From Zoogloeaceae bacterium (GTDB taxonomy: Bacteria; Pseudomonadota; Gammaproteobacteria; Burkholderiales; Rhodocyclaceae), in assembly GCA_031288305.1 (NCBI GenBank), contig JAITRP010000117.1:1-35687 (forward strand): 35,687 bases of DNA, written 5' to 3'. A model generated the notes under the pieces. The model was not told the DNA's origin, did not search any database, and worked only from the letters and a program-made list of their open reading frames with translations. The position numbers and the translations under genes were made by a program. Below, one piece after another: positions 502 to 31,600 of this stretch; position 1 is the first letter of the stretch; each line of letters begins with the position of its first letter.

Positions 502-637
502 AGCAAGAAATTAGCGGCAGACCTTCAGGTCTGCCGGTCTAACGTCATTGGGAAGGGGTTTGCATCCCCTCCCCAATGGCTACGGTCGAAACCCCGGCCT
601 TCAGGGCGGGGTTTCAAACCAGAGTTAGTTTTACGAT
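502..637 (+). repeat. Multi-hairpin palindromic element (family 2), copy A
   Basis: AGCAAGAAATTAGCGGCAGACC-TTCA-GGTCTGCCG...CATTGGGAAGGGG...CCCCTCCCCAATG...CCCCGGCCTTCAGGGCGGGG...GTTAGTTTTACGAT; near-identical to 29796-29932 and to the reverse complement of 28698-28866. Confidence 0.9.
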
Positions 638-12472: not shown

Positions 12473-12493
12473 GAAATTTGCCTTTTTTGGTGA

Positions 12494-12845
12494 GCGGCAA
12501 AAAGTAAAAACCCACTTTTTGCCGGTTTGTCTTGGGTTTGAAACCAGGCAAATCCTGGCTTCAAACCGTATAAAAAAACCAACGTGAAACCCATCCGGCC
12601 TGGCGGCCAGTCACGTTGAATCGACGCAATTTTGGCGTGACTGCCTGCCGGAAGCCCCCTGTCCCTTCCCCTTTGTGGGAGAGGATGGCGCAAAGCGCCG
12701 GGAGGGAGCGGCTCAAAAGAGCAAAGCCGCTGAACTGTGGCTTCCCCTGACCCCTCCCCCGCAAGGAGGAAGGGGGACAAAAGCGTTTGCCCTGTCTTCA
12801 GGCATTTTGAATTTCATACGGTTCATTCAGCATGACGGACTACCA
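12494..12845. repeat. Composite family 1 element with 'GTCACGTTGAATCGACGC' module
   Basis: GCGGCAAAAAGTAAAAACCCACTTTTTGCCGG hairpin, GGTTTGAAACCAGGCAAATCCTGGCTTCAAACC palindrome, then a block at 12610-12845 closely matching 28488-28895. Confidence 0.8.
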
Positions 12846-17433: not shown

Positions 17434-17668
17434 AACGTCAAAACCTACTTTTTGCCCGGTTCAGTCAGCAAAAAAGGACAGGCAAAGCCTGCCTTTTCTG
17501 GGGTAAAGGCAACGCAACCCACTACCACCTGCACGGTACTGTAGGGGCGCACTGCGCGCGCCCGTCAGCCGTCACGCGGCGGATGATTTGCGGGCGCAGA
17601 GCGCTCCTATAACCACCATAAGGCCGAAAGCCGCGCAAAAAAAGCGGAGGGTTGCTTTTTGCCGCTTC
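17434..17668. repeat. Two-ended family 1 element
   Basis: Left AACGTCAAAACCTACTTTTTGCCCGGTT right after the coaX stop; right GCGCAAAAAAAGCGGAGGGTTGCTTTTTGCCGC; internal palindromes GGACAGGCAAAGCCTGCC, GTAAAGGCAACGCAACCCACTACC, TAGGGGCGCACTGCGCGCGCCC. Confidence 0.8.
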
Positions 17669-20829: not shown

Positions 20830-21043
20830 GTCCGGTCATAGGGGCGCACTGTGCACGCCCCTATGACCGGACGGACGGGTAGTGGGTTACGTTGTCTTTA
20901 TTCCAAAAAAGGCAGGCTTTGCCTGTCTTTTTTGGAATATGAAACCGGCACAAGGCCGAAGGCTGGTCTGGCGAAGCCAAATGCGGCTTTGCTCTTGCAG
21001 GTTGCAAAGCCGCGCAAAAAGTAGGTTTTCATTTTTTGACGTC
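20830..21043. repeat. Family 1 mosaic repeat with boundary hairpin at right end
   Basis: GGTCATAGGGGCGCACTGTGCACGCCCCTATGACC palindrome, TAGTGGGTTACGTTGTCTTTATTCCAAAAAAGGCAGGCTTTGCCTGTCTTTTTTGGAAT, GGCTGGTCTGGCGAAGCC, then GCGCAAAAAGTAGGTTTTCATTTTTTGACGTC; abuts ccmB 3' end. Confidence 0.8.
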
Positions 21044-23461: not shown

Positions 23462-24319
23462 GTGTCTGCTCTGGTTTCCCCGCGTTTCGATTTGCATGTG
23501 CATTCCACGGCTTCGGATGGGCTGTTCACGCCGGAGGCGGTGGCGGCACGCGCGAAAGCGCGGGGGCTGGATGGGTTGGCATTGACCGATCACGACAGCG
23601 TGGCGGGGCTTGCCGCGGCGCGGCGGCAGGCGGCGGCGGAAGACCTGGTCTTCATCAATGGCGTGGAAATTTCCGTCGAATGGCAAGATACGCCCATACA
23701 CATCGTCGGGCTGGGCTTCGATGCGGCGCATCCGGGTCTGCTGGCGGGCTTGAAGACGACGCAGGATGGACGGCTGGAGCGGGCGCGACGCATGGACGCG
23801 GCATTGGCGGCGGCGGGCATTGCCGGTACGCTTGCCGGCGCGCTGCGGCACACGGCGCATCCGGCGCAGATTTCGCGCGCCCATTTTGCCCGCCATCTGG
23901 TGGAAATCGGCCTCTTTGCCGATACGGGCAAAGTATTCGAACAGTACCTGACGCCGGGAAAACCTGGCTACGTGCCGCATCGCTGGGCGACGCTCGCCGA
24001 GGCCGTCGGCTGGATACGCGCGGCAGGCGGCGTGGCGGTGGTGGCGCATCCGGGACGCTACGAAATCTCCAGCGGGCAGATGCGCGTGTTCCTGGGCGAG
24101 TTTCGCGATCTGGGCGGCGAGGCAATCGAAGTTTCCTCCGGCAGTCATGTGCCGGCGCATATGCGCCGTTTCGCGCGGCTGGCGCGATCATTCGGTTTTC
24201 ACGCCTCGCAGGGTTCGGACTTTCATGGCGGCGCCGGAGCGGATCTGGGCGGATTCGCGCCGCTGCCGGAAGACTTGCCGCCCGTCTGGCGCTTATTGAA
24301 TGGGGACGTCAAAAAGTGA
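23462..24319 (+). CDS. PHP-domain phosphoesterase (RNase AM / TrpH-like)
   Basis: GTG start; FDLHVHSTASDGLFTPEAVAARAKARGLDGLALTDHDSVAGL; VVAHPGRY; GSDFHG. C-terminal GDVKK* is encoded by repeat sequence. Confidence 0.92.
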   Translation: MSALVSPRFDLHVHSTASDGLFTPEAVAARAKARGLDGLALTDHDSVAGLAAARRQAAAEDLVFINGVEISVEWQDTPIHIVGLGFDAAHPGLLAGLKTTQDGRLERARRMDAALAAAGIAGTLAGALRHTAHPAQISRAHFARHLVEIGLFADTGKVFEQYLTPGKPGYVPHRWATLAEAVGWIRAAGGVAVVAHPGRYEISSGQMRVFLGEFRDLGGEAIEVSSGSHVPAHMRRFARLARSFGFHASQGSDFHGGAGADLGGFAPLPEDLPPVWRLLNGDVKK

Positions 24320-24570
24320 AAGGCTACTTTTTGCCGGTTCGGCCAGCAAAAAAGGGCAAGCAAAGCTCGCCCTTTTTTGGTGTAAAGGCAAGGCAACCCA
24401 CTGCCTGTCCGCGCGATCCTGGATCCTGTAGGGACGCGCTGCGTGCGCCCCTGCGACAACCGCACCGCCCGCGCTGGTTTTTCGTTGGTTTTGCACGGTT
24501 TGAAGCCAGGCTTTGCCCGGTTTCAAACCCCGAAATAAACCGGAAGTAGGTTTTCACTTTTTGACGTATA
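24304..24570. repeat. Best-preserved family 1 element with inverted terminal hairpins
   Basis: Left GACGTCAAAAAGTGAAAGGCTACTTTTTGCCGG; right CCGGAAGTAGGTTTTCACTTTTTGACGTA (near-perfect inverted copy); internal palindromic modules shared with 17434-17668 and 31320-31600. Confidence 0.9.
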
Positions 24571-28197: not shown

Positions 28198-29008
28198 ACG
28201 GCAAAAAGTTAAACCCTGCTTTTTATCGAGTAAGTCAGGCGCAATGAAAAACAGAGAATACTGTCAATAATCTATCCCCAACGAAGCGCGCCAAACTTCC
28301 TCCCTCCCCTGCTGGAACCGAAGGCGGAAGGACAGCCGCGGGCTGGTCTGGCGAAGCCAGATGCGGCAAAGCCGCGCACAAGGGGAGGGCAGGAGAGCAG
28401 GCGTCAGCGCTCCGATGCAAGCCGCCTCGCCGCAATCCCTCTTGTCAGGTGAGAAGAAAACCGCGCGCCTTTGCGCCCTAGTAGCCCGTCACGTTGAATC
28501 GACGCGATTTTGGCGTGACTGCCTGCCGGAAGCGCCCTGTCCCTCTCCCCCTTGTGAGGGAGGGCTTGCACCCTGCAAGGGGAGCGGCTCAAAAGAGCAA
28601 AGCCGTTGAACCGTGGCTTCCCCTCTCCCCTGACCCCTCCCCCGCAAGGAAGGAGGGGGAAAAAGCGTTTGCTCTGTCTTCAGGCACTTTGAGTTTCATC
28701 GTAAAACTAACTCCGGTTTGAAATCCCGCCCTTCAGGGCGGTGCGAAGGTCGAAACCCCGGCCTGAAGGCCGGGGGATCAATCCGTAGCCATTGGGGAGG
28801 GGAGAGAAACCCCTTCCCAATGGAGTTAAACCGGCAGCCCTGAAGGGCTGTCGCTAATTTCTTGCTAGGGTTCATTCAACATGACGAACTACTAGGATCG
28901 TGCGGATGGGTAGTGGGTTTTCTTGCATTTACTCCAAAAAAGGGCGAGCTACGCTTGCCATTTTTTGCTGACTGAACCGGCAAAAAGCGGGTTTTTACTT
29001 TTTGCCGC
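28198..29008. repeat. Large composite family 1 element with nested family 2 copy C
   Basis: Left TACGGCAAAAAGTTAAACCCTGCTTTTTATCGAG; right GGCAAAAAGCGGGTTTTTACTTTTTGCCGCC touching the queE stop (TAG at 29009-29011 on minus strand); internal block 28488-28895 matches 12610-12845. Confidence 0.8.
28698..28866 (-). repeat. Multi-hairpin palindromic element (family 2), copy C, longest form
   Basis: Reverse complement of copies A/B but with two separate terminal hairpins (CCGCCCTGAAGGGCGG and CCCCGGCCTTCAGGCCGGGG) instead of one fused hairpin. Confidence 0.9.
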
Positions 29009-29795: not shown

Positions 29796-29932
29796 AGCAA
29801 GAAATTAGCGGCAGACCTTCAGGGCTGCCGGTCTAACGTCATTGGGGAGGAGTTTCTCTCCTCTCCCCAATGGCTACGGATTGATCCCCCGGCCTTCAGG
29901 GCGGGGTTTCAAAACGGAGTTGGTTTTACGAT
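29796..29932 (+). repeat. Multi-hairpin palindromic element (family 2), copy B
   Basis: AGCAAGAAATTAGCGGCAGACCTTCAGGGCTGCCG...CATTGGGGAGGAG...CTCTCCCCAATG...CCCCCGGCCTTCAGGGCGGGGTTTC...TTTTACGAT. Confidence 0.9.
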
Positions 29933-29977
29933 AAAAACCCAACGAAAAACCCATCCGGCGGGGTTTTGTTGCCTTTG

Positions 29978-31319: not shown

Positions 31320-31600
31320 AGCGGGAAAAAGTGAAAACCCACTTTTTCCCGGGTTAATCAGGGTTTGAAGGCAAAGCAAAGTTTCGCCTTCAAACCGTGA
31401 AAAAGCAACGAAAAAACCAGCGCGATCCGCATGGTTCTCGTAGGGACGCACACGGCGCGCCCCTGCGACCGGTGTTCAGACCGGATGGGCGGCAGCAGTG
31501 GGTTTTCGTTGCCTTTCCCCCAAAAAAGGACGAGCTTTGCTTGCCCTTTTTTGCTGATCTGAACCGGCAAAAAGCAGGTTTTTGCTTTTTTGACGCCTAC
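31320..31600. repeat. Two-ended family 1 element between tolB and pal
   Basis: Left GGGAAAAAGTGAAAACCCACTTTTTCCC; right GGCAAAAAGCAGGTTTTTGCTTTTTTGACGCC overlapping the tolB stop; internal GGTTTGAAGGCAAAGC..CGCCTTCAAACC, TAGGGACGCACACGGCGCGCCCCT, CAGTGGGTTTTCGTTGCC, CCAAAAAAGGACGAGC..GCCCTTTTTT. Confidence 0.88.

Follow-up and report, generated by a model that had tools for sequence, protein, structure and literature searches.

Targets of IS200/IS605 elements are set by base pairing. Two members of this family have subterminal hairpins and a preferred base at +1: IS608 inserts 3′ of TTAC, in ~70% of cases into TTAC|C, and ISDra2 inserts 3′ of TTGAT, in ~90% of cases into TTGAT|G (PMC5934647). 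PATEs, or IS200/IS605 MITEs, are short, carry no open reading frame (ORF), have palindromic ends, leave no duplication and are presumed to be moved by a Y1 TnpA acting in trans (PMC7290912). REPINs, with their RAYTs, are high-copy, hairpin-rich, non-autonomous and HUH-linked (PMC3116915), and on Borrelia plasmids free-standing IS605 stem-loops, which have IS605-like end structures, have spread without a transposase and are linked to genes (PMC2775950).

The element described here resembles each of these systems in the properties just named and departs from each in others. It differs from PATEs in that the searches found no autonomous parent sharing its ends, in a TTCAT target that lies on start codons, in its Shine-Dalgarno-like and stop signals, and in its more than 100 copies. 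It differs from ISDra2 and IS608 in inserting at TTCAT|G, in containing neither tnpA nor tnpB, and in a right-end guide pairing that is not recognisable; from REPINs in being larger, with four hairpins, non-inverted ends, a defined pentanucleotide target and no associated RAYT; and from the Borrelia stem-loops, which lie at the 3′ ends of lipoprotein genes, in its position at 5′ start codons and in having a defined junction. A literature search, not exhaustive and with subscription papers outside its scope, met no prior account of bacterial MITEs that target start codons. The TTCAT target landing on start codons and the ends compatible with translation appear to be the new aspects. We regard the element as probably a non-autonomous, IS200/IS605-like element of the MITE/PATE type, mobilised in trans, with clean insertion 3′ of TTCAT and ends compatible with translation.

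Copies and architecture

The window is the whole stretch of DNA that was analysed, 35,687 nucleotides from a Zoogloeaceae bacterium whose genome (G000) is a short-read draft of 2.72 Mb in 224 contigs. The copy under study, copy B, belongs to an element with 143 left-end and 129 right-end motifs in this genome, whereas the reversed control patterns gave 0 matches for either end. A search of the same genome with a 137-base query gave a full-length match (E = 8e-67), and 61 match segments were listed; the repetition is far greater than chance would give. Many contigs stop inside element copies, as expected of a short-read draft. The element is a dispersed mobile repeat of about 130–140 copies without a protein-coding gene.

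The element is bounded by AGCAAG...TTTTACG and is commonly ~160–168 bp long (~160–170 bp overall). The common form consists, in order, of AGCAAGAAATTAGCG, hairpin 1, GGTCTAAC, hairpin 2, GCTACGG, hairpins 3 and 4, and AAACCGGAGTTAGTTTTACG; copy C has the full form, and the shortened copies A and B have a single fused hairpin 3/4. The start of copy B at 29796 and its flanks are as the earlier note gave them, but the AT at 29931–29932, which lies within the span given in that note, belongs to the target, since the empty site in the closest relative (G009) places the element's end, ...TTTTACG, at 29930. The features of the window are as follows.

502–635, plus strand: element copy A, with target ATGAA at 636–640
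12813–12817, minus strand: empty counterpart of the copy C site in a paralogue, reading TGAACCGT^ATGAAATTC on the minus strand
28700–28866, minus strand: element copy C, full form of 167 bp, with target ATGAA at 28699–28695 on the minus strand
29796–29930, plus strand: element copy B, 135 bp, shortened; in the transposition (HUH) orientation it would be read on the minus strand
29806–29808, plus strand: TAG at element positions 11–13, which closes upstream ORFs that formerly ended in an ATGA overlap
29810–29829, plus strand: hairpin 1 (right-end hairpin in the HUH orientation), with compensatory changes among relatives
29840–29872, plus strand: hairpin 2, whose arms covary in relatives
29887–29906, plus strand: fused hairpin 3/4 (left-end hairpin in the HUH orientation); CCCCGGCCTTCAGGCCGGGG...CCGCCCTGAAGGGCGGGG in full copies
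29916–29919, plus strand: a Shine-Dalgarno-like GGAG, 11 nt upstream of the position taken by the A of the target ATG
29931–29935, plus strand: target of copy B, ATAAA, where the empty orthologue in G009 has ATGAA; on the transposing strand, a 5′ flank resembling TTCAT

Folded as single-stranded DNA, the element is far more structured than its shuffles (z = −10.6). Hairpin 1 shows clear two-sided changes, for instance C-G replaced by G-C in 18 of 46 sequences and A-U by G-C in 13, and hairpin 2 covaries as well. The fold and the covariation of hairpin 1 place subterminal hairpins at both ends of the transposing strand. No curated covariance model in Rfam matches the element. The element contains a CTAAC...GTTAG core like that of an integron attC site; this candidate was rejected by eye, the junctions lying outside the core and R′ being unlike GTTRRRY.

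Two variants were met. One copy of ~690 bp (L164:1531-2217, in G013:C15) has the usual ends and an ATGAA target and carries a 149-aa ORF (MEKAKGFVSNIRNT...) between hairpins 2 and 3; the product looks membrane-bound, and the copy is possibly a cargo-bearing form. Separately, a perfect palindrome of 48 bp, AGCAAGAAATTAGCGACAGCCCTTCAGGGCTGTCGCTAATTTCTTGCT, occurs alone at L152:17-64 and L209:4711-4758; it corresponds to an element end facing itself and is a separate repeat.

Empty sites and target

Insertion was followed by comparing filled sites with their empty counterparts. The orthologue of copy B in G009 is empty and reads CTTCAACCC^ATGAAACCAACG, against CTTCAACCC[element]ATAAAAACCCAACG in the filled site. 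In G014, one IS605 has a free tnpB start (...CTGAAT^ATGAAACGTCTTC, L152) and a second is filled (...CTGGAC[element]ATGAAACGACTTC, L158). Searching the joined flanks of G000 copies against five relatives yielded further exact empty junctions before ATG, at a trkA-like gene (four relatives), nusB (four), rdgB and ubiE and at L018, L268, L277 and L280; at a few of these sites the relative's own sequence beside the junction differs. For copy C the comparison can be made within the window, where an empty paralogue, TGAACCGT^ATGAAATTC (reverse complement, ~12809-12825), stands against the filled TGAACCCT[element]ATGAAACTC; the empty site that the earlier note read for this copy is thus real. At about ten empty/filled orthologous sites no target-site duplication was seen, as that note had supposed from the window alone, and nothing was lost either. 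One base, the A at the junction, is ambiguous, and the cut is possible on either side of it. We conclude that the whole element inserts as a unit, precisely and directly 5′ of ATGAA, and that target bases are neither duplicated nor deleted.

The two intergenic blocks that provide the copy C comparison (12477–12817 and 28474–28699) are paralogous, multi-modular and ~88% alike, and copy C interrupts the second.

Flank statistics were taken over 157 non-redundant complete copies, a sample of the copies rather than an exhaustive alignment. Aligning flanks over the copies, as the earlier note had proposed, gave a consensus: the right flank after TTTTACG was exactly ATGAA in 123 of 157, and most of the others were one change away. 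The left flank had no motif except a C at −1 (93 of 157, 59%), which was enriched over 1879 control ATGAA sites (33%, p = 5e-8), also when only start-like sites were compared (69% versus 42%, p = 1e-3). On the opposite strand the element sits 3′ of TTCAT, with a preference for TTCAT|G; the last bases of its other end are TTGCT. The target is thus a one-sided pentanucleotide on one strand, with the other flank free except for the bias at −1, and this +1 base preference, by analogy, mirrors that of IS608 and ISDra2. These 157 flanks and the G009 empty site overturn the shared target read earlier from the window, AACCGTAT split as AACC|..|AT: the target is ATGAA, on the right side only, and copy B itself has ATAAA. 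The modules at ~12560 and ~31388 that had been taken for matching empty sites are paralogous repeats and not the pre-insertion site, and AACCGTAT reflects a chance agreement between two paralogous modules.

Rolling-circle elements of the IS91/Helitron kind also insert beside one short target without duplication. An HUH element of that kind, with a Y2 transposase, would account for the one-sided target, the missing duplication and a hairpin ~12 nt from one end, and, given the ambiguous A, the insertion point could lie between A and T. Y2_Tnp was found only in G004, which is without the element, and was absent from all element-bearing members of the genus; we consider this origin very improbable. 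Families of the IS110/IS1111 type choose their sites via a guide RNA (PMC11187229). The strong RNA-like fold and the lack of duplication would suit an element whose site is picked in this way, and yet the conserved target amounts to just five bases on one side, which makes such an element still harder to credit. The IS200/IS605-like reading is the one carried forward below.

Start codons and translation signals

With a TTCAT (ATGAA) target, many insertions fall on start codons. We called a site start-like if an ORF of at least 80 codons began at that ATG and an in-frame stop lay no more than 50 codons upstream, a definition based on ORFs and not on annotation. By this measure 52 of the 109 ATGAA insertions with enough flank were start-like, compared to 247 of 1619 control ATGAA sites (OR 5.1, p = 2e-14). 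Against non-coding ATGAA only, the start-like share was 0.79 versus 0.69, which is not significant (p = 0.11), so the excess at starts may reflect survival bias and not start targeting. The data are most simply explained by loss of insertions within genes and by a tolerance at starts similar to that in intergenic DNA; this tolerance at starts is notable in itself.

Both empty and filled orthologues were found at the trkA-like, nusB, rdgB and ubiE starts, and further copies lie at the starts of mnmG and gatB. Proteins downstream of copies include MnmG, GatB, NusB, UbiE, Ham1/RdgB, TrkA and an XerC/D-type recombinase, along with ProQ-domain, Methyltransf_4, ManC-type and FliR-type proteins. Several have a Pfam domain that starts within the first ten residues, and Pfam domains run from or near residue 1 in several downstream ORFs (MnmG, GatB, TrkA_N, Ham1, DAO and OrfB HTH). 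On the Polaromonas JS666 plasmid the element ends at 382 and an annotated IclR-family CDS (RefSeq-derived) starts at base 383; no sigma-70 promoter was found inside that copy. Many targets of the element are therefore start codons, a point absent from the earlier note, and several belong to conserved genes.

A structured sequence with a Shine-Dalgarno-like motif, often directly upstream of ORFs, could also be a conserved 5′ leader RNA, a riboregulator inherited with its genes and not mobile. Orthologous genes in relatives lack the element and have exactly joined flanks, about half of the copies are not at ORFs, and Rfam gave no match; as with the guide-RNA element above, we give this explanation hardly any weight. 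As a full account it is refuted by the empty sites; some copies may still regulate genes to the benefit of the host.

An insertion between a ribosome-binding site and a start codon should normally silence the gene. The ends of the element carry two signals that bear on this. Among 157 copies, 117 had GGAG (and 27 AGAG) at positions −15 to −12 relative to the ATG, and 144 had TAG at element positions 11–13. Upstream ORFs of 50 codons or more formerly terminated at the TGA of ATGA at 36 sites. With the element in place, nearly all of these ORFs end as x-Ala-Arg-Asn-stop, a reading given by its first bases, A GCA AGA AAT TAG; the ATGA-overlap junctions closed by the element's TAG include those upstream of nusB and rdgB. 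These end motifs likely preserve the expression of host genes, a translational camouflage predicted from the sequences, although GGAG and TAG may instead be conserved for transposition, given that all of both ends is conserved. Insertions at start codons would survive because the element provides its own translation-initiation region, with transcription coming from upstream. A broader proposal is that the ATGAA target and the ends (TAG in the frame of the ATGA overlap, GGAG at a fixed distance) co-evolved for life at the starts of active, even essential, genes, with the element acting as a mobile and exchangeable 5′ leader in place of the native translation-initiation region; we put this forward tentatively, at somewhat short of even odds.

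In several betaproteobacterial lineages a high-copy parasite occupies the first codon of genes such as nusB, gatB, mnmG, ubiE and rdgB. Should it provide translation initiation and tidy the stops of upstream genes, it would have a natural route to neutrality inside operons and would amount to a wholesale rewiring of 5′ leaders; base pairing, which sets the targets of IS200/IS605 elements, would also make it a possible lead for programmable insertion. How parasites can build up 100 or more copies without killing a 2.7 Mb genome becomes directly testable with this element.

Mobilising machinery, distribution and neighbouring repeats

Very likely the element works like a non-autonomous IS200/IS605 element. 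Four of the seven features that define such elements were found (no duplication, a one-sided target, the +1 preference and subterminal hairpins), and none of the six examined was contradicted. A Y1 (HUH) TnpA, possibly from a resident IS605, would recognise the end hairpins, excise a single strand and join the element to TTCAT in single-stranded DNA. The earlier suggestion of a single-strand HUH/IS200-IS605 mode thus gains the clean empty sites, the one-sided target, the +1 preference, the hairpins and an IS605-like left end, while the matching Y1 TnpA or REP-associated tyrosine transposase it pointed to did not emerge: among Y1 hits in G000, 19 same-genus and 6 further genomes, no transposase gene was flanked by the element's ends.

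G000 itself has four Y1_Tnp fragments, which are of the IS200/IS605 type and not RAYTs. The left-end hairpin of a resident IS605 fragment there (L032, AAGCCCCGCCCTTCAGGGCGG) agrees with the element's left end at 20 of 21 bases in the same orientation, scoring 18.5 against a shuffle maximum of 11. In G010 the IS605 and the element both carry a TTTAGGG loop variant; in G014 the match between the two left-end hairpins is within the shuffle range. The right-end hairpin and end sequence of the element differ from those of the resident IS605. Because GC-rich palindromes are common here, we treat the left-end match as a lead and not as proof. A further feature of such elements, known for IS608, is a guide tetranucleotide 5′ of each hairpin that is complementary to the cleavage site; by eye, TGAAA/AAAC is plausible as a guide at the left end, and none is obvious at the right end. 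A search for autonomous copies, as left ends without a nearby right end, returned only decayed, interrupted or cargo-bearing copies and none with tnpA. GC skew around 53 copies gave no signal of replication-strand bias (20 positive, mean −0.004), a measure confounded by gene direction. TnpB-guided persistence in G000 was dismissed as a candidate, the PF07282 search having detected no TnpB-type domain there. One element copy (L033:1643-1775) lies inside an IS200-type tnpA (Y1) remnant, and this remnant adjoins what looks like a piece of an IS5-like transposase, a case of nested IS decay.

The copies might instead be REPIN-like and moved by a RAYT (TnpA-REP), a domesticated Y1 transposase. RAYT-like Y1 proteins occur in G013, G017 and G003, and the element is high-copy, hairpin-bearing and mostly extragenic. 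Against this, those RAYT loci have no element ends within the fetched flanks, no RAYT lies beside the copies or is among the Y1 matches of G000, the ends are not two inverted REPs with a GTAG-like foot, and RAYTs cut at CT or CA dinucleotides (PMC8266576) and not at a pentanucleotide. We judge a RAYT-driven origin unlikely, and the IS200/IS605-like element remains our preferred reading.

The element was present in G000 and in 14 of 19 other genomes of the genus, and absent from all 40 other family and order genomes searched. It also occurs in MAGs or genomes labelled Zoogloeaceae, Accumulibacter, Azoarcus, Sulfurisoma and Rhodocyclaceae, in Rhodoferax ferrireducens OTU1 and in Betaproteobacteria bacterium MS502-56. 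A plasmid search gave one match, Polaromonas JS666, and a phage search gave none.

The window holds other repeats. REP-like GTAGGGGCGCACTGCGCGCGCCC repeats lie at 17542–17563, 20839–20860, 24429–24450 and 31441–31462, and the RAYTs of the relatives G003, G013 and G017 could be the movers of these. Another palindromic family (CGGCAAAAAGTGAAAACCCACTTTTTGCCGG) has at least 8 copies in the window, including 12495–12527, 24307–24339, 28199–28231 and 31322–31354, and G009 has dozens of related modules. Finally, the segments at 24307–24420 and 28894–29007 form a 114-nt inverted repeat pair, 83% complementary and made of several small modules.
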